The notes below the pieces were generated by a model. That model ran no database searches. It saw only the letters and a list, made by a program, of their open reading frames with translations, and had not been told where the DNA came from. From a virus, in IMG/VR virus record IMGVR_UViG_3300030450_001611, positions 1 to 25,816 of that record: DNA of 25,816 bases. One strand, written 5' to 3'. The position numbers were made by a program, and so were the translations under genes. Below are positions 10,073 to 25,334 of the stretch, one piece after another. The first letter of the stretch is position 1. Each line of letters begins with the position of its first letter.

Positions 10073-11963
10073 TATTATTGTAGAGTTTAAACCAAAAGGT
10101 GATAAAGAATTAGTTAGAGCTATAAAAGCATTACAAAAAGCTAAACTTGGCTTAAAAAATAGTACTGATAAAGCTACTAATAGTTTAGGTTTATTTGATA
10201 CTAAAACTAAACGAAACGCAAAAAGTATGAGTAATTTAAGTGTAGCTTTTTCAACAGCACGTTCCAAATTATTATTATTTAATTTTGCTATGGGTTTAGG
10301 TATTCAACAGTTAGCACAAATGGCTCAAGAGGCAGCAAAACTTGATGCTATGGAAACAGCTTTTAATAATTTAAGTGGTGGGTCATCAAATGCAGCTAAT
10401 TCAATAGAAAAATTAAGGGAAGCAACTAACGGAACTGTTTCAGATTTTAATTTATTCCAACAAGCAAATAATGCTATGATTTTAGGTGTAAGCAAAAATT
10501 CTGATGAAATGGCTCAATTATTTGATATGGCACAAAGACTTGGTAGGGCTATGGGTGTAGATACTAGACGTTCTGTTGAATCTTTAATTACTGGTATTGG
10601 TCGTCAATCAAGATTAATGCTTGATAACTTAGGTATTATTGTATCAGCAGAACAAGCATACAAAAGATTTGCTTTAGATAATAATCTACTAGCATCTGAA
10701 TTAACTGACGCACAAAAAAAACAAGCATTTTTTAACGAGGCATTAAGGCAAGGTGAAGCAGCATTATCTAAAACTGGTCAAGAAGTAGATTCTTCACAAG
10801 ATTCTCTTGATAGGTTGGGTGCATCTTTTCAAAACTTACAAGTAAGAATTGGGGAGGTTGCTATTGAATTTCTCCCACTAATTGACGGTACCACAAAGTT
10901 TCTTGACCTTGTTACAAGCGATAAAATTAGAACTGCTTTTAGTTTAATAACTAACATAGCATTAGCTTTTGTTGGTTTAAAAACTGCTGCTCTTGCAGCT
11001 AGAGTGATTTTAGGTGCTTTAAGTAAGGCTATAGCAAGAAATATTGCTTTTATTACCTCAGGAATTGCAGAGACAAGAACATTTGCACAAAGTATGTTAG
11101 TTTTAGGTAAAAGATTTGTTGATTTTTTAGGACCTGTAAAGAGTGCTGCATTATTTTTAGGAACATTTATAACTGTTGCTAAAGAATTTGTTTTTGGTAC
11201 TGATGAAACCACAGAAGCAGTAAATAAGTTCAATGGGGCTTTAATGTTAGCTCCACAATTTTTAGGGCAAATTAATTTTGTTATGGATGAAACTATACCA
11301 AAATTAGAGACTAAAAAAGAAAAGTTTGATAGATTAACTAAAGCCACACATAGTTATGCAAAAGAATTAGAAGGTTTACAAAAAGTAGAAACAGGAGGGC
11401 TTGATGTAACAGAGCAACATAATAAGTTGGAACAAGACAAATTAAAATCGTATTCAGCAGTAGCAAAAGCTGGTGCTGCCTTGGTTTCTGCTGGTGGAAA
11501 AAATGCTTTACAGGCAGCTAGGTTACAACAATTAGCAGCAATAATAGATACTTATGCAGCAGCTACCAAAGTAGTAGGTGCTCCTTGGGAAATGGCTAGA
11601 GTTATTGCCACAGGATTAGCTAATGTAGCTATGATTGAAAACTCAATGTCTCAAATGAGCTCTGCAGCAGGAGGTAGTGGCAATATTTACGGCTCATTTG
11701 AACACGGTGGTTATGTAGGTGGAAACAGACACTCACAAGGTGGTACTATTATAGAAGCTGAAAGAGGTGAGTTTGTAATGAGCAGAAATGCTGTAGAATC
11801 TATCGGCTTAGAAACCCTTAACCAAATGAATCAAGGTGGTGGTGGTGGAAGTATCAATGTAAGTGTCACAGGTAATGTTTTAACACAAGATTTTGTTGAA
11901 GGCGAACTTGCAGAATCAATTAAAGAAGCTGTCCGTAGAGGTAGTGATTTTGGGATTGGGTAA
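10065..11963 (+). CDS. Tail tape measure protein
   Basis: The 632-residue protein sets tail length and is ejected during infection. It has a long helical Ala/Lys/Leu-rich N-terminal half, hydrophobic segments near residues 65-87 and 285-318, a second helical region, and the C-terminal 'GGYVGGNRHSQGGT..EAERGEFVMSRNAVE' block (about 548-575) that is frequent in tape measure proteins of marine and other phages. By the usual rule of about 0.15 nm per residue it would specify a tail near 95 nm. The N-terminus (MSDIIVEFKPKGDKELVRAIKALQ) is typical of short siphovirus tape measures. Confidence 0.85.
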   Translation: MSDIIVEFKPKGDKELVRAIKALQKAKLGLKNSTDKATNSLGLFDTKTKRNAKSMSNLSVAFSTARSKLLLFNFAMGLGIQQLAQMAQEAAKLDAMETAFNNLSGGSSNAANSIEKLREATNGTVSDFNLFQQANNAMILGVSKNSDEMAQLFDMAQRLGRAMGVDTRRSVESLITGIGRQSRLMLDNLGIIVSAEQAYKRFALDNNLLASELTDAQKKQAFFNEALRQGEAALSKTGQEVDSSQDSLDRLGASFQNLQVRIGEVAIEFLPLIDGTTKFLDLVTSDKIRTAFSLITNIALAFVGLKTAALAARVILGALSKAIARNIAFITSGIAETRTFAQSMLVLGKRFVDFLGPVKSAALFLGTFITVAKEFVFGTDETTEAVNKFNGALMLAPQFLGQINFVMDETIPKLETKKEKFDRLTKATHSYAKELEGLQKVETGGLDVTEQHNKLEQDKLKSYSAVAKAGAALVSAGGKNALQAARLQQLAAIIDTYAAATKVVGAPWEMARVIATGLANVAMIENSMSQMSSAAGGSGNIYGSFEHGGYVGGNRHSQGGTIIEAERGEFVMSRNAVESIGLETLNQMNQGGGGGSINVSVTGNVLTQDFVEGELAESIKEAVRRGSDFGIG

Positions 11964-14900
11964 TGCTAGATTTACCAGATAAGTTTAAATTAGCTTTAGG
12001 TAATGGTGTAAGAACATCTTTATTTCCTTTAGTTGTTATCGGATCTAATGTTAGGCTTTCAATTAAGTCTGTTAATATAGATGGAGAATCTTATGATGCA
12101 CTTCTTTTAAGTTCTCCATCGATAAAATCTTCAGCCGACATCATAAACAACAAATACACAATCTCTAGTGTATCTTTATCTGTATCTAATTCTATGTATC
12201 ACGGCAAAATGTTTAGCGATTCTTTGCCTTCCTTGTTAAATGAAACTGCTGAAATTTATTATTGTGCTAATGGTATTACGTCTTTAGATGACTGCCTTCT
12301 TGTATACACAGGAACTCTTAGGCGTTATTCTCAATCGGCAGAATCTATAAAACTTACCTTAGAAGATTTAACAGAAGAAAAATTAACAACAAAAATACCT
12401 ACTACCATTATAGATGATGAAAGTCGCTATAATGAGGATGATATAGGTAAACCTTACCCTATGGTTTATGGTAAAGTTTCAAAAAGTCCTTTAATATTTT
12501 CGGAAAATAGATTAGAAATTGACAAGCCTTCACAGCCTATTGAAAGTTACTGGAATGATGAAAATCAAGTAGAATATGGAAATACTTATGTTGATGAATA
12601 TCACGATTTGTTAACATATGATTGGCTAAAACCATATTTTTATCTTTCTGTCTATAATGAAGGATTTAATCCAATACCTAATGAAGTTGTAAGAAATTGG
12701 GGTTCAAGAGCACACGATAATATTGTTGAGGATACTAAAATTTACAGATATGAAGGTGCTGGAGTAGGTAGTTCAGCAGCTATCGTGTTAGAAACAGATG
12801 TTTTAGCTTACGAAGAATATACTGAAGATACCGAGGGTAATTATGTTGGTGTTGGAGAAAAGGGTATACCAGCAAGAGTGTATAGACCTATTGTTGATGT
12901 TGGGTTTTTTGCTAAAAATTTTACAACTGCTCACATTGGTTCAGATGATAATGGTAATGCGATGTATATAGCAAATACTTCTAATAAGTTTTTTGGATTT
13001 TCTGGTCGTCCAGAAGCATCAGGAGGAACAGATCCCCACAATGATACCGAGGTTTTTGGTAATGTAACTTACGTAACTAATGGAGATATTGGTTATTCTG
13101 GTCTTGACAATACTGGAAGCCCTATGCAAGATAGGTATGATGTTTCTTGGGGTGGCAATGGTGATGAAAGCTGGTGGGAACCTACTGTAGTTAATGAAAG
13201 TGCTGGAACTTCAACAGAAGATGGTACGTGGGCTTATGAAGATGAAAATTGGGATGAAGGTAATCGTAAATTCCCTGTTTATTACATACAAAATGATAAT
13301 CGAAACACAGGTTTACATTTAGATGCAAAAAATTATACAAAAGTTGATAGTGGAGGTTTTGCTAGTTTAAAACTTGCACAAAACATAGGAGATTATAAAT
13401 GTGTAACAAAAATACTATATAATATAGATTATTTTATAGATAGTGATATTTTACACCTTAATAAACATCTCCATAATAATTCCAATAAAAGTTTTTATAG
13501 TACGTGGCACCCTTGTTCTTTTTGGTTAGATAAAGGTCTACCACAAGATGTTGCTGAAAGTATACAAAATAATACCTTAGATGATGTAGACCACACTAGA
13601 AATCGTTGGGACCATTACAATGGGTATGATAACTGGATTACCCCTTGTGAAGTACCTAATAATCAGCACCATTTTCTTAAAACTGTAGAACAAACTAATG
13701 ATTCTGATATAGCCACAGGTTGGAATGTTAATACTGACGATTCTGGGTTTGAATATGAAGGTAATAATTTTGACAATATAATTATTGGCTTTGATAGTAC
13801 AAATTCTTATGATTCTATCCAATGGGGAACTAGAAATCCTAGAGCTGCTAATTTTGCTATGTTTACAACTCACGCCAATTTAAAAGAAGTCTATATCTTA
13901 CAAGACTACATAATAAAAGGAATAGAAAAACAAAAATTTCATTCTGATATTCAAGGGAGAACATTAAACAACACCCTTGTTATGAATCCTTCTTCTATAT
14001 TGAAACATATCCTAGAAAAAGAGCTTGATTATGGTCTTTATACTAATTCAGAAATACTTGATACTAGCGATACTCTTGATACTGATTGGGAATTTTCTTT
14101 TACCCTTTCAGAACAAAAAGAAGCTAAAAGTGTATTTGAAGGGTTGTTTAAATCATCTTTATTTATACCTTCTTTTGATAGTGAAGGTAATTTTAAATTT
14201 ATAAATTTAAAACAAACTATGTCGGCTTCGGACATATCAGGTTATCCTATTATAAATAACCAAGATATTTTAAAATATTCATTTGAGCTATCTAAGCTAG
14301 ATGATGTATATAGTTCTGTTAATGTAAAATATAAAAAGAATTATGGTTCTGGCGAATTTGATAAGCGTACAGGATATTCTCTTGTAGATGTAGATGGAAA
14401 TTCTTATGATAACTATCAACAGTTGACTGAGCATTACTATGAAGATTCAAATGAAATATATGATGTGCAAGATTATTACAATACATCGGCAGAAGATACT
14501 AAACTAGAAGTAGAAACTGAATATGTTAGAGATGAATCTACAGCTAAAAAATTACAAAAAAGACTTTTAATGTGGCATATCAACCAGCACATAATAGTTA
14601 AATTAGACCTACCTCCAAGCTATATACACTTTGAAGCAGGAGATTATATTAGGTTTGAGGAGCTTGTTGGTGGTAAACTTGCTTTTGGTTATGATTATAC
14701 ACAAGCAGAAAGAAGAAACGGACAACTTATTTATCCTGTATTTTTTATTACTAAAGTTTCTAAGTCTTTAACAAAGGTAAGTATAGAGGCAATACAGATC
14801 CATCGTGGGGAGTACGGCTTCCCAGCAGAAGATGATAATGATGGTGGAGATATTGTAAATAGTGAAAAGGTAGAGATAACTGAAAACTGGCTATTTCCAG

Positions 14901-15580
14901 AAGAAGATTATTCTCAAAAGAAAATTTATGAAGAAGTGGAAGATGATTATTTAGACTTGTATCTTGACCATCAAGTATTAAGTAATGGAGCAATTACAGC
15001 TTCTGTTATGACTAATATGGATGAAAGTTGGCAATATGATATATGGGTTAAAAGAGTAAACTCTCCTGACGGTTTTATTTCATATTATGATTCTCTTGGA
15101 GAGCTACAAACAATCCATAACGGCAATTATGAAGCAGGAGATATTTCTGCAAAAGATTTAGTTTTTCATAGCTTACAAACTGAAGATAACGATAATTCGG
15201 AAACAGAAGATAATAACAACGGAACTATTAATATTGGCAAAAAATTTGTATTAGCTCCTTTTGGCTCTGTGATTGAATTTATATTGCAAGTTAAAAATAT
15301 TCACCAAGAAGATACAAAGATGTTTAGACAATTTGGTGAAGCAGATCCTCAAGTTAATCTTGGAGATATTAATGAAGATGGGATAGTTAATATTTTAGAT
15401 GTCGTTCAAATAGTTCAAGCAATTCAGTCAGACCAAGAAGATACTTTACCAGAACAAGCAGATATAAATCAAGACGGTATATATAATATTCAAGATATTG
15501 TTATGATTATTAATTATATACTCACAGGAAACTGGGATGGTGGCGATGACCAAGAAGGACAAGATGGAGGAATTAATTAA
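11963..15580 (+). CDS. Large tail-tip / baseplate hub protein with C-terminal dockerin-like domain
   Basis: The 1205-residue protein starts at an ATG overlapping the tape measure stop. The N-terminal ~180 residues ('KFKLALGNGVRTSLFPLV', then 'LTLEDLTEEKLTTKIP' and 'GKPYPMVYGKV') resemble tail-tip proteins that follow the tape measure gene. A region around 690-960 with 'SVFEGLFKSSLFIPSFDSEGNFKF' and 'HFEAGDYIRFEELVGGK' resembles baseplate hub/gpJ-type folds. Residues about 1133-1191 contain two matched loops, DINEDGIVNILD and DINQDGIYNIQD, each with D-x-N-x-D-G-x2-N-x2-D spacing and followed by a helix; this is a type I dockerin arrangement predicted to bind two calcium ions. An acidic Gly-rich tail follows. 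It probably forms the tail tip and contacts the host. Confidence 0.7.
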   Translation: MLDLPDKFKLALGNGVRTSLFPLVVIGSNVRLSIKSVNIDGESYDALLLSSPSIKSSADIINNKYTISSVSLSVSNSMYHGKMFSDSLPSLLNETAEIYYCANGITSLDDCLLVYTGTLRRYSQSAESIKLTLEDLTEEKLTTKIPTTIIDDESRYNEDDIGKPYPMVYGKVSKSPLIFSENRLEIDKPSQPIESYWNDENQVEYGNTYVDEYHDLLTYDWLKPYFYLSVYNEGFNPIPNEVVRNWGSRAHDNIVEDTKIYRYEGAGVGSSAAIVLETDVLAYEEYTEDTEGNYVGVGEKGIPARVYRPIVDVGFFAKNFTTAHIGSDDNGNAMYIANTSNKFFGFSGRPEASGGTDPHNDTEVFGNVTYVTNGDIGYSGLDNTGSPMQDRYDVSWGGNGDESWWEPTVVNESAGTSTEDGTWAYEDENWDEGNRKFPVYYIQNDNRNTGLHLDAKNYTKVDSGGFASLKLAQNIGDYKCVTKILYNIDYFIDSDILHLNKHLHNNSNKSFYSTWHPCSFWLDKGLPQDVAESIQNNTLDDVDHTRNRWDHYNGYDNWITPCEVPNNQHHFLKTVEQTNDSDIATGWNVNTDDSGFEYEGNNFDNIIIGFDSTNSYDSIQWGTRNPRAANFAMFTTHANLKEVYILQDYIIKGIEKQKFHSDIQGRTLNNTLVMNPSSILKHILEKELDYGLYTNSEILDTSDTLDTDWEFSFTLSEQKEAKSVFEGLFKSSLFIPSFDSEGNFKFINLKQTMSASDISGYPIINNQDILKYSFELSKLDDVYSSVNVKYKKNYGSGEFDKRTGYSLVDVDGNSYDNYQQLTEHYYEDSNEIYDVQDYYNTSAEDTKLEVETEYVRDESTAKKLQKRLLMWHINQHIIVKLDLPPSYIHFEAGDYIRFEELVGGKLAFGYDYTQAERRNGQLIYPVFFITKVSKSLTKVSIEAIQIHRGEYGFPAEDDNDGGDIVNSEKVEITENWLFPEEDYSQKKIYEEVEDDYLDLYLDHQVLSNGAITASVMTNMDESWQYDIWVKRVNSPDGFISYYDSLGELQTIHNGNYEAGDISAKDLVFHSLQTEDNDNSETEDNNNGTINIGKKFVLAPFGSVIEFILQVKNIHQEDTKMFRQFGEADPQVNLGDINEDGIVNILDVVQIVQAIQSDQEDTLPEQADINQDGIYNIQDIVMIINYILTGNWDGGDDQEGQDGGIN

Positions 15581-22902: not shown

Positions 22903-23121
22903 CTATATATAATAATAGTTTATTCGTTTGATTTCTACATTTGGATATAAGTCTTTAATTGAGCAATTTAGAATCTTTGCTAATTGTCTTAACCTTTTTT
23001 GATTTGGCTTTCGCACTCCAGAGCAGTATAGTGAGAGAACAGAGGGATTTAAGTTTATCTGTTCGCAAATATACGAGGCTTTTAACCCCTTTGAGCGAAT
23101 TATGTTTTTGATGTTATTCAT
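22903..23121 (-). CDS. Cro/CI-type helix-turn-helix repressor
   Basis: The 72-residue protein contains a full XRE-family HTH: 'IKNIIRSKGLKASYICEQINLNPSVLSLYCSGVRKPNQKRLRQLAKILNCSIKDLYP' with the helix-turn-helix near residues 14-38. Cro-sized, it lacks a CI-type oligomerisation domain. It is headed by an AT-rich region with divergent promoter signals and inverted repeats, as expected of an autoregulated switch. CGGAGATTATAA gives the ribosome site. It may regulate the early operon and the divergent transcript. Temperate life style is possible but not proven. Confidence 0.8.
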   Translation of the reverse strand: MNNIKNIIRSKGLKASYICEQINLNPSVLSLYCSGVRKPNQKRLRQLAKILNCSIKDLYPNVEIKRINYYYI

Positions 23122-23151
23122 TTATAATCTCCGTTTCATTTTTCTTAATTT

Positions 23152-23179
23152 AATATAATCCTAAACAATTATGCAACAA
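23152..23179 (-). promoter_or_regulatory. Promoter candidate for the repressor gene
   Basis: On the - strand TTGTTG (23174-23179), 16-base spacer and TATATT (23152-23157), about 30 bases before the repressor ATG. A 7-bp inverted repeat CAATTAT/ATAATTG (23166-23172 and 23206-23212) flanks the -35 boxes of both divergent promoters. Confidence 0.4.
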
Positions 23180-23209
23180 ATTTATTTTTTTTATGTTAAA
23201 TAATAATAA

Positions 23210-23238
23210 TTGTTGTTTATAATTATAATGTTTATTAT
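23210..23238 (+). promoter_or_regulatory. Divergent + strand promoter candidate
   Basis: TTGTTG (23210-23215), 17-base spacer, TATTAT (23233-23238). It faces away from the repressor promoter, with only 30 bases between the -35 boxes, so a repressor bound between them could control both. Its transcript would begin near 23245, just before the first stem of the structured gap. Confidence 0.45.
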
Positions 23239-23244
23239 TTTATC

Positions 23245-23500
23245 ATCCTAAATATTTGATTTGTTGGTTTTATAGACTTCGTGGATCAAATATAATAAAG
23301 CAGTTACATGAAGGGCATAGCAAAACTGCAAGGATAGGATGAATAAGAATAGTCCTGCTATCTCGAAAATATTCTTAGGTGTTCTGACGAAATAACTTCG
23401 TAGGATATAATGCACTAATCAACTCCAGAATCTGGGGCTATAGGATTGGTGCATCCTCTAAAATTCATCATAGGATATAATATAAGGCTTATAATATTAG
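23245..23500 (+). ncRNA. Candidate structured non-coding RNA or cis-element in repressor-upstream gap
   Basis: This stretch holds no convincing protein gene. It contains successive inverted repeats: ATATTTGAT/ATCAAATAT (23252-23260, 23285-23293), GCAGTT/AACTGC (23300-23305, 23324-23329), TAAGAATA/TATTCTTA (23344-23351, 23370-23377), ACGAA/TTCGT (23387-23391, 23397-23401) and TGCACTAATC/GATTGGTGCA (23411-23420, 23444-23453) enclosing CTCCAG/CTGGGG. It looks more GC-rich than its flanks, with a + promoter directly upstream and a weak AT stem plus TTTTT at 23480-23505. TAGGATATAAT is repeated at 23401 and 23471. An RNA, a replication origin or an attachment region are all possible. Confidence 0.35.
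23339..23395 (+). CDS. Possible micro-ORF MNKNSPAIS..., 18 aa
   Basis: ATG after AAGGATAGG opens an 18-codon frame inside the structured gap. Its first nine residues and upstream bases resemble the + frame at 19303. It could be a leader peptide of the + transcript; confidence low because of its length. Confidence 0.2.
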   Translation: MNKNSPAISKIFLGVLTK

Positions 23501-23634
23501 TTTTTAAACTTATAAATTAAATCTTTTAATACTTGTTTATACTTATCATTATTACCTTTACTTACATTTTCATAATAAAACTCTTGTAAAGAATATTTAA
23601 TTAAAAGTTTTTCAGTTTTATTAAATTCATTCAT
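23497..23634 (-). CDS. Small basic protein, 45 aa
   Basis: Frame starts MNEFNKTEKLLIKYSLQEFYYE and ends QVLKDLIYKFKN; mostly helical, Lys/Tyr-rich. Leader TAATAACTAATATGAAAGGAA is shared in form with the next upstream gene. No recognised family. Confidence 0.5.
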   Translation of the reverse strand: MNEFNKTEKLLIKYSLQEFYYENVSKGNNDKYKQVLKDLIYKFKN

Positions 23635-23661
23635 TTTTTGCCGTTCCTTTCATATTAGTTA

Positions 23662-23868
23662 TTATATAAACATACCTTTTAAATACTCTATATTATAATC
23701 TGGATATAATTGTTTAATTTGTTTAACAAGTTCTTGATATTGCCAGACTCTTAATTCAGTAAGATCTTCAACTTCATTAAGTTCTTCTATACCATATTCA
23801 GACCAATATAAAATATTATCTTCTATTTTATAGTAAAAATCATCTAAATCTTCAATTTCTATGATCAT
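23662..23868 (-). CDS. Acidic small protein, 68 aa
   Basis: Starts MIIEIEDLDDFYYKIEDNI after a GAAAGGAATAAA site. Strongly acidic N-terminal two thirds (EYGIEELNEVEDLTELR) and a helical C-terminus (YQELVKQIKQLYPDYN). Negatively charged small early proteins can mimic DNA to block host factors; that is only a suggestion. Confidence 0.6.
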   Translation of the reverse strand: MIIEIEDLDDFYYKIEDNILYWSEYGIEELNEVEDLTELRVWQYQELVKQIKQLYPDYNIEYLKGMFI

Positions 23869-23895
23869 TTTATTCCTTTCTATTAGTTATTAACA

Positions 23896-24042
23896 TTATT
23901 TATTAATTATAACTTTATTATAAGATATAGTAACTTTATCGGCTTTATTATGATCTACGCCCAAAGAATCACAAACATCTTCCCAAACTTTTGAATATCC
24001 AAAATCTTCTGAATATAAATCTAATAATCTATCTTTTTTCAT
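23896..24042 (-). CDS. Small protein, 48 aa, unknown
   Basis: MKKDRLLDLYSEDFGYSKVWEDVCDS... ends in a strand-rich stretch (KVTISYNKVIIN). The start lies in codons of the upstream gene, 14 bases before its stop. No domain recognised; small early phage protein. Confidence 0.55.
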   Translation of the reverse strand: MKKDRLLDLYSEDFGYSKVWEDVCDSLGVDHNKADKVTISYNKVIINK

Positions 24043-24196
24043 TTTTTTGCCTTTCCACTATTTTTAAAAATTCTTTTGTTTCGTCTTTCCATTTTTGAGG
24101 GATATGTTTACTTGTTGAAAAATCAATTAAAAAATTTACTTTTTCATTATAAGATAATTGCTTGTTATTCCACCAGTTTAAAAGTTTTATATTCAT
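24029..24196 (-). CDS. Small protein, 55 aa, unknown
   Basis: GAGGAGTAATAAA precedes ATG. MNIKLLNWWNNKQLSYNEKV... has Trp-rich N-terminus and helical, Lys-rich C-terminus (DETKEFLKIVERQKNEKR). Overlaps the next gene by 14 bases. Confidence 0.55.
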   Translation of the reverse strand: MNIKLLNWWNNKQLSYNEKVNFLIDFSTSKHIPQKWKDETKEFLKIVERQKNEKR

Positions 24197-24208
24197 TTTA
24201 TTACTCCT

Positions 24209-24346
24209 CTAGTTAATTATAAAGTTGATCCCAAGCCTTATAACCATAAAGCCGACCATACTTATAATACTGGTTAATATAATCATTACTAAGTGAATTA
24301 TAATACTTAGATATAATCTAAATATATTTGGAAAGTTATTATTCAT
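24209..24346 (-). CDS. Membrane microprotein, 45 aa
   Basis: AAAAGGAGTAAAA precedes ATG. The short polar start (MNNNFPNIFRLY) is followed by one long Ile-rich hydrophobic stretch, from about residue 13 to 36, with no charged residue; it ends RLGINFIIN. It would sit in the inner membrane. The operon spacing and ribosome site argue it is real. Function unknown. Confidence 0.55.
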   Translation of the reverse strand: MNNNFPNIFRLYLSIIIHLVMIILTSIISMVGFMVIRLGINFIIN

Positions 24347-24358
24347 TTTTACTCCTTT

Positions 24359-24490
24359 TTATTTATTTTCATTTTCATATTTTTCTATTAATAAAGCTAT
24401 TTGATTATAGTTTAAATTGTCCATAAATTGCCCGTAATACCAACAAATATCATTTATTTGTGTTTTAGTATAGTAATTATAAAAGTTCAT
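24359..24490 (-). CDS. Small Tyr/Asn-rich protein, 43 aa
   Basis: MNFYNYYTKTQINDICWYYGQF... with acidic C-terminus (IEKYENENK). Its leader contains the 19-base repeat TTTTTAACTCTCACTTTCT (given in + orientation), also found before the next gene upstream. No family recognised. Confidence 0.5.
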   Translation of the reverse strand: MNFYNYYTKTQINDICWYYGQFMDNLNYNQIALLIEKYENENK

Positions 24491-24509
24491 TTTTTAACTC
24501 TCACTTTCT
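24491..24509. repeat. 19-bp direct repeat, copy 1
   Basis: TTTTTAACTCTCACTTTCT lies immediately upstream of the start of the gene at 24490. Read on the - strand it gives AGAAAGTGAGAGTTAAAAA next to the ATG, so it contains a GTGAGAG ribosome-site-like stretch. The second copy is at 24697-24715. Confidence 0.7.
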
Positions 24510-24694
24510 ATTTTATTTAATATAGATTTAATTTTTAACTTTCTAAATTCCATTCCAGGAATTGCATAATAATTTAAATCATTAAGTTCTTTTTGAAGTT
24601 CTTTTATAAAATCATTACTAAATATACTTTTTAAATACTTTTTGTAATTATGCTTTATAAAATTATATTCACTATTTGATAATGTTATTTTCAT
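24494..24694 (-). CDS. Helical protein, 66 aa, unknown
   Basis: MKITLSNSEYNFIKHNYKKYLKS... is helical and Lys/Asn-rich, with two possible helices (DFIKELQKELNDL and MEFRKLKIKSILNKIE). Preceded by repeat copy 2 as leader. It overlaps the upstream gene's 3' end. No recognised domain. Confidence 0.55.
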   Translation of the reverse strand: MKITLSNSEYNFIKHNYKKYLKSIFSNDFIKELQKELNDLNYYAIPGMEFRKLKIKSILNKIESES

Positions 24695-24788
24695 TCTTTT
24701 TAACTCTCACTTTCTTTAATAATTTAGGTGAAATTCTAGTTTTAGTTTTGCCGTTAATTCTAATTGAGCTATATATAATATATTTCAT
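24672..24788 (-). CDS. Basic microprotein, 38 aa
   Basis: AAAAGGAGCTAAT precedes ATG; MKYIIYSSIRINGKTKTRISP... continues into a basic stretch (KLLKKVRVKKNE). Repeat copy 2 is encoded within its last third (KVRVK region). Possible DNA- or RNA-binding peptide; unknown. Confidence 0.5.
   Translation of the reverse strand: MKYIIYSSIRINGKTKTRISPKLLKKVRVKKNENNIIK
24697..24715. repeat. 19-bp direct repeat, copy 2
   Basis: Exact second copy of TTTTTAACTCTCACTTTCT, 206 bases from the first, placed two bases upstream of the gene start at 24694 and inside the coding end of the gene at 24672. Suggests duplication of a leader or of a gene-plus-leader unit. Confidence 0.7.
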
Positions 24789-24789
24789 A

Positions 24790-25149
24790 TTAGCTCCTTT
24801 TAATTACATTTTTAGATATTGTTTTTAGTTCGTGATTCATATCCATACTTTGACCAAAATCAGTTTTACCCCAAATATACAAACCTTTAAATTCTGCTAC
24901 ACAACCACCAATTTTAGCAAGTTCTTCGTATAACCATTCACTAATAATAAAATATTGATATATTTCTGGATATTCATCATTTTCTTCATCATATCCAGAA
25001 CTAAATTCTATACAATCATCATTTTTTGACGCATAATCAATTAATTCATTACATAGTGTTAATACATCTCTATTAATAATGGTTTCAGTAAATTCTTGCT
25101 CTTTGTCTGTTAAACCATTCCAATTTAGTTTTTTAGTTTCTGGTTTCAT
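24790..25149 (-). CDS. Uncharacterised protein, 119 aa
   Basis: MKPETKKLNWNGLTDKEQEFTETII... is helical at the N-terminus, acidic in the middle (SGYDEENDEYPEIYQYFIISEWLYEELA), and ends with 'GCVAEFKGLYIWGKTDFGQSMDMNHEL', a strand-rich Trp-containing segment. This is the longest of the distal early genes. AAAGGAAATAAATAAA precedes ATG. No family confirmed. Confidence 0.65.
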   Translation of the reverse strand: MKPETKKLNWNGLTDKEQEFTETIINRDVLTLCNELIDYASKNDDCIEFSSGYDEENDEYPEIYQYFIISEWLYEELAKIGGCVAEFKGLYIWGKTDFGQSMDMNHELKTISKNVIKRS

Positions 25150-25163
25150 TTTATTTATTTCCT

Positions 25164-25334
25164 TTATTTAGTTAGGTTAATGTAAATTTTTAATTCTTTT
25201 TTAGCTTCTTGTATTGTATCAAATGAAGCACTTCCAAATATATTTCTTGCACTTAAATCACATACTTCATATTTGTTGTCTAAATTGATACCTATTTGAA
25301 AGTCGTAATTTTTATATGTATATATTTTAATCAT
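25164..25334 (-). CDS. First gene of the early operon, 56 aa
   Basis: MIKIYTYKNYDFQIGINLDN... begins with beta strands and ends with a helix (FDTIQEAKKELKIYINLTK). The stop TAA belongs to a leader (AACTAAATAAAGGAAATAA) that resembles the leader of this gene itself. Nearest gene to the operator-flanked promoter at 25378-25427, so probably expressed immediately on infection. Function unknown. Confidence 0.6.
   Translation of the reverse strand: MIKIYTYKNYDFQIGINLDNKYEVCDLSARNIFGSASFDTIQEAKKELKIYINLTK

Follow-up and report, generated by a model that had tools for sequence, protein, structure and literature searches.

An RNA gene lying beside a small HTH gene with divergent promoters is familiar from the immunity RNA of phage P4 and the OOP RNA of phage lambda, both of which are short and simple RNAs, and loop-loop pairing in a phage RNA is known from the packaging RNA of phi29. 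Phage RNAs of greater complexity are few, and a function is lacking even for those whose structures have been solved. Among them, ROOL and GOLLD are ornate RNAs of phages and prophages (PMC12286853). They reach ~600-800+ nt, often lie near tRNA islands, and form homo-oligomeric cages through intermolecular kissing loops.

Here we describe an RNA of ~240 nt encoded in an intergenic gap of a viral DNA stretch of 25,816 nt (IMG/VR record IMGVR_UViG_3300030450_001611; "the window" hereafter denotes this whole stretch). With a triple-pseudoknot core and strong covariation, it appears to represent a new RNA family, unlisted in Rfam 15. Like ROOL and GOLLD, the gap RNA is an elaborate phage-borne RNA with covarying kissing loops and pseudoknots; unlike them, it adjoins an early operon, with no tRNA in the window. 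All evidence for the gap RNA comes from DNA sequence. Membership in these classes was judged by an Rfam match and a length >500 nt, and the gap RNA, with a conserved block of ~240 nt, had neither this length nor a match to the ROOL and GOLLD models. It shares compactness and conservation with raiA, OLE and other large bacterial noncoding RNA classes, and loop-loop pairing with the phi29 packaging RNA, but matches no Rfam 15 family: scanning the whole window at the family gathering scores returned 0 matches, a permissive scan of positions 23100-23560 returned SNORD66 alone (14.9 of 32 bits), and a type C relative (see below) gave chance-level matches only. A search of the open-access literature found no description of a matching RNA.

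Layout of the gap and its promoter-like elements

The gap separates the HTH gene from a very small ORF, and contains the following elements, given in window coordinates.

22903 to 23121, minus strand: gene of a 72-aa HTH (Cro/C1-type) protein, a lone domain (Pfam HTH_3, E 1.7e-8)
23122 to ~23496: intergenic gap, with the HTH gene on one side and a 45-aa minus-strand ORF on the other
23152 to 23179, minus strand: promoter-like boxes of the HTH gene, TTGTTG (23179-23174), 16 nt, TATATT (23157-23152), from sequence
23210 to 23238, plus strand: right-hand promoter-like boxes, TTGTTG (23210-23215), 17 nt, TATTAT (23233-23238), from sequence
23217 to 23229, plus strand: probable promoter -10 region, TTATAATTATAAT, a consensus match in an AT-rich background
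23239 to 23478, plus strand: structured RNA of ~240 nt, from a covariance-model match with approximate ends
23497 to 23634, minus strand: 45-aa ORF whose stop borders the gap

Both pairs of divergent boxes named in the original prediction were located, and promoter-like sites as a class were not enriched in the gap sequence (13, compared with 16.6 in shuffles). Across the family, a TATAAT, TATAAA or TTTAAT element occurs in 22/24 members ~14-20 nt ahead of the RNA leader, and on this basis transcription probably starts at ~23230-23240. At the 3' end, no recognisable terminator-like hairpin was found. As had been proposed from the sequence, a plus-strand transcript would be antisense to the small minus-strand genes.

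A pseudoknotted fold conserved among phages

Folding the window sequence by itself gave modest evidence of structure, with a plus-strand energy of -63.3 kcal/mol (z -2.5; 2/200 shuffles equally good) and a z of -1.85 for the minus strand. We collected relatives of the gap by several routes. Starting from the HTH protein, we reached two phage contigs that share the gap, and a conserved-word search yielded members of type A (the window, L012/L016, L017 and L019), type B (L011, L013/L015 and L018) and type C (L035, L043 and L042/L124), further pattern matches being due to chance. A resolvase gene common to these phages gave 80 loci. A covariance model built solely from types B and C then recovered the window RNA at 147.5 bits (E 1e-41, the E-values of these models coming from a shortened calibration) together with ~15 additional members that diverge further (types D and E), and a second model added L146 and strengthened L145, L147, L178 and L154 (type F).

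In all, the RNA was found in 31 phage contigs, window included, and its strand is opposite to the early operon wherever checked. It is present in one copy per contig, as established for those genomes scanned in full, G015 being the one possible exception. In G015 (L199, L200), HTH and Sak genes are each present twice, and a type D RNA is accompanied by a truncated type A leader where the contig begins. This may reflect a duplicated module or, as the doubled HTH and Sak genes suggest, the merging of two co-occurring strains during assembly. Beyond these contigs, a nucleotide search of cultured phages returned weak AT-rich matches only, and a combined type A and B pattern run against 84,980 species genomes to detect host or prophage copies found 50 stretches, all chance on inspection, with types C-F falling mostly outside the pattern. 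The RNA was also absent from the searched regions of Salinibacter phages that have the same resolvase. The family thus defined appears to be widespread in one phage group known from metagenomes only, in which many related phages of uncultured bacteria carry the RNA as an exchangeable cassette.

Twenty-four members are full ones, carrying hairpins H1 and H2, pseudoknots PK-a, PK-b and PK-c, and hairpin P7 between twin repeats. In the window, the helices are placed as follows.

23254 to 23291, plus strand: hairpin H1, AUUUGAUU (23254-23261) with GAUCAAAU (23284-23291); 8/8 pairs changed on both sides, 100% of cells paired
23277 to 23313, plus strand: kissing pseudoknot PK-a, CUUCGUG (23277-23283, H1 loop) with CAUGAAG (23307-23313, H2 loop)
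23300 to 23329, plus strand: hairpin H2, GCAGUU (23300-23305) with AACUGC (23324-23329); 6/7 pairs changed on both sides
23317 to 23361, plus strand: pseudoknot PK-b, AUAGC (23317-23321, H2 loop) with GCUAU (23357-23361, H3 loop); 5/5 pairs changed on both sides
23331 to 23356, plus strand: pseudoknot PK-c, AGGAU (23331-23335) with GUCCU (23352-23356, H3 loop)
23344 to 23377, plus strand: hairpin H3, UAAGAAUA (23344-23351) with UAUUCUUA (23370-23377); 5/6 counted pairs changed on both sides, 98.6% paired
23387 to 23401, plus strand: small hairpin P6, ACGAA with UUCGU, by eye
23412 to 23452, plus strand: hairpin P7, GCACUAAUC with GAUUGGUGC, around CUCCAG with CUGGGG; outer stem 5/9 pairs changed on both sides and 97.7% paired, inner stem 5/6 and 98.6%

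The original prediction had read a series of inverted repeats in the gap, and these were found, including a 9-bp stem (23412-23420/23444-23452) around a 6-bp hairpin; the three pseudoknots, which covary, were absent from that description. It had also named covariation among homologous gaps as one check to make. In the 24-member alignment (A7), which was fitted to the nested stems and not to the three pseudoknots, the 8 helices comprise 53 pairs, of which 41 changed on both sides, and 93.8% of cells hold standard pairs. The covariation score was 0.700; shuffles gave 0.228 +/- 0.012, with 0/500 reaching the score, and slid controls did not exceed 0.143.

We complemented this analysis with a comparison that is independent of column-by-column alignment, scoring the best helix between two segments taken from the same phage (cognate) or from different phages (swapped), in 15 representatives with 5000 permutations. 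Each of the five stems and of the three pseudoknots gave 0/5000; of the 144 control segment pairs, four scored 5/1000 or below, their differences being smaller, and the other 140 were not close. PK-a forms 7 bp in 14/15 representatives (cognate 16.3, swapped 10.6), with variants CUUCGUGxCAUGAAG, CUUCUGGxCCAGAAG, CUUUUGGxCCAAAAG and CUCUUUGxCAAAGAG. The corresponding values for PK-b were 12.7 and 7.6, with variants AUAGCAxUGCUAU, AUCACAxUGUGAU, AUCGUAxUACGAU and GUUUACAxUGUAAAC, and PK-c varied among AGGAUxGUCCU, AGGUUxGACCU, AGGUUxAACCU, GGGAUAxUGUCCC, AGGUGxCACCU and UCGUUxGACGA. All three pseudoknots can be made out by eye in subtype F, which lies outside all models (ACACxGUGU, CCACxGUGG and GCACxGUGC for PK-b/PK-c). 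Because the H3 loop pairs on either side of the 3' arm of H2, the core is tightly knotted.

Paired positions of the alignment contain 106 G-U cells and 17 A-C cells, and this excess identifies the plus strand as the RNA strand; compensatory changes are thus accompanied by G-U pairs tolerated on one strand only. Once this comparative evidence is added, chance is far exceeded, confirming, at the level of the compared genomes, that the fold is real. No reading frame on either strand is open across all members, most members have stops in every frame, and indels between subtypes are not multiples of three. Since both strands carry stops in varying frames, the gap RNA is not a protein gene, and the proposal of a structured plus-strand RNA in place of a protein is supported.

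Other pairings are less certain. P6-position hairpins (ACGAA/UUCGU or CCAC/GUGG) occur by eye in most subtypes, and types A-C could plausibly form a further helix, P4 (GAUGAA x UUCAUC), which remains a candidate because its sequence hardly varies. A closing stem formed by the leader with the strand after H2, or with a repeat, was considered and found no covariation support; the pairing of leader and second repeat is present in the minimum-energy fold of the window. The covariance models and named helices make compensatory-mutation tests possible.

Twin repeats identical within each phage

Two copies of TAGGATATAAT had been noted in the gap, and we found them where they frame P7.

23401 to 23411, plus strand: repeat R1, TAGGATATAAT, equal to R2 within a phage and different among phages
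23471 to 23481, plus strand: repeat R2, TAGGATATAAT, bordering the variable small-gene region

These are the only copies in the whole window, both strands searched. In 23/24 members a single 8-12 nt word is present twice, following P6 as R1 and again, 65-78 nt away, at the 3' boundary as R2; the exception is L011, whose twin repeats carry changes. The word itself differs by subtype (TAGGATATAAT, TAGGTCATA, AGGTTTATAAT, AGGGTTATAAT, AGGGATATAAT or CGAGTTACATA), and L178, L147 and L145 each have their own. Within a genome, the longest word common to the R1 and R2 zones measured 10.46 nt, compared with 6.67 nt when the zones came from different genomes, and 0/100000 permutations reached the within-genome value. 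This is the strangest feature of the gap RNA: identity within a phage and difference between phages amount to an unusual constraint, which offers a direct handle on a partner. Together with the conservation of three pseudoknots, the twin repeats show that the shape of the RNA matters.

A conserved internal partner accounting for the identity of R1 and R2 was looked for across the family and not found, and the strand preceding P6 lacked family-wide support as a partner of R1. Service of the repeats as an operator for the HTH protein is unlikely, because near-identical HTH genes accompany different repeats. A more specific proposal, which we regard as quite improbable, is that the gap encodes a small RNA machine of new fold in which R1 and R2 are read as a matched pair, R1 serving at the RNA level as a guide or as a site of processing and R2 matching it at the DNA level or at the 3' end; if true, this would let the RNA gene move among phages as a precisely bounded cassette.

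The sequence past R2 (23482-23500 in the window, and in relatives) is often AATATTAGTTATTAACATT, which recurs at junctions of small minus-strand genes, for example at 23880-23897 in the window, and may mark a boundary of recombination or expression that these places share.

Possible roles of the gap RNA

A conserved structure fits a trans-acting RNA, a ribozyme or a cis element alike. Comparison among the members demonstrates the fold, strand, conservation and exchange as a unit of the gap RNA, and we favour, at even odds (a probability of about 0.5), its being the product of a self-contained gene of ~240 nt with its own promoter, acting in trans. Such an RNA would be transcribed rightwards during infection, divergently from the early HTH operon. 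In its fold, H1 and H2 kiss through 7 bp and the H3 loop pairs to the H2 loop and to the strand right after H2, forming a compact core followed by the P7 domain between the two identical short repeats. The core would offer a rigid RNA surface to a partner from phage or host, either a protein or a nucleic acid, as scaffold or decoy, and the partner that reads the twin repeats would drift in specificity from phage to phage.

Rather than acting in trans, the RNA might be a cis-acting leader, an antitermination or attenuation element opening a long plus-strand transcript toward the packaging and structural genes, which we consider unlikely. In four larger genomes the RNA heads the minus-strand early operon, variable small minus-strand genes lie beyond it, and packaging and structural genes follow; the later large plus-strand genes share the strand of the RNA, with capsid and tail genes, all on that strand, starting 7-9 kb downstream. 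However, several kb of minus-strand genes intervene, and the later plus-strand genes are themselves preceded by minus-strand genes. In these genomes the next plus-strand gene of >170 aa lies ~2.6-4.6 kb downstream of the RNA, and because no notable plus-strand gene occurs over this distance, a free RNA is favoured over a leader.

Catalysis is another, unlikely, reading of the compact core, its three pseudoknots and its conserved loop nucleotides: as a ribozyme or self-processing RNA, the core would cleave or join RNA, and the two identical repeats that flank P7 in nearly every member would be the processed sites. Against this, no Rfam ribozyme matched above chance, and a flanking exon-like arrangement is absent.

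The original prediction saw in the gap a resemblance to an immunity switch with one arm making a structured RNA, and divergent promoter-like boxes with an adjoining HTH gene do occur in many members. In such an immunity or lysis-lysogeny switch the HTH protein would repress one arm, and the RNA, as the product of the other, would counter the repressor operon. The exchange history of the two genes speaks against this. L133 and L015 are 97.3% identical in the HTH gene and 97.3% in the promoter gap but 63.9% in the RNA, whereas L133 and L143 are 64.4% identical in the HTH gene, 62.9% in the gap and 98.8% in the RNA, so that the same HTH gene and promoter gap accompany very different RNAs, and vice versa. 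The recombination breakpoint coincides with the 5' edge of the RNA, at its predicted start, and the RNA is exchanged as a unit. Genes also intervene between the RNA and the HTH gene in L116, L117, L145 and L147, where the distance is 1.5-1.8 kb, and in L119. Because of this independent exchange and these intervening genes, the RNA and the HTH gene are not a co-inherited pair; co-inheritance of an RNA arm with a cognate repressor was not found, and a tie to the repressor is not supported. Moreover, the 72-aa HTH protein is a lone domain, and an integrase-like protein was not found among the window proteins scanned. While the P4 immunity RNA and lambda OOP resemble the locus in layout, independent exchange with the HTH gene sets the gap RNA apart from them, and we judge a switch of this kind decidedly unlikely.

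An RNA that heads the early operon beside the Sak annealing gene could also be a primer or activator transcript of a phage replication origin, near genes for replication and annealing. We hold this to be very unlikely: neither the cumulative GC skew nor the keto skew turns at the RNA, both tracking gene direction, and the RNA lies as far as 1.5-1.8 kb from the HTH gene in the members named above.

Finally, inverted repeats that arose by chance in AT-rich DNA, or a gene coding for a protein in antisense, suggested by a single-sequence fold moderately better than shuffles and by a minus-strand frame open across the RNA in some members, are refuted by the cognate-versus-swapped test, the covariation of eight helices and the G-U excess, and by a minus-strand frame that is broken in most members with indels not in threes.

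Several features of the surrounding genomes are of separate interest. L115 and L116 are 99.9% identical over 11.4 kb and differ entirely in the small-gene region upstream of the HTH gene; L116 has the RNA in this region, and L115 lacks it within the fetched DNA. In the window, positions 23500-25334 hold a run of very small minus-strand genes that differ from phage to phage, nearly all of those scanned having no family match, and likely form a rapidly exchanged accessory region. End repeats are present in two of the four larger genomes (G004 and G005), and the capsid protein has distant similarity (27-33%) to pelagiphage capsids. Positions 11963-15580 of the window encode a structural protein of 1205 aa, probably a tail protein, with a type I dockerin domain at its C-terminal end (Pfam E 8.8e-11), which is unusual in a phage protein; G004, G005, G008 and G015 have a homologue at the same place.
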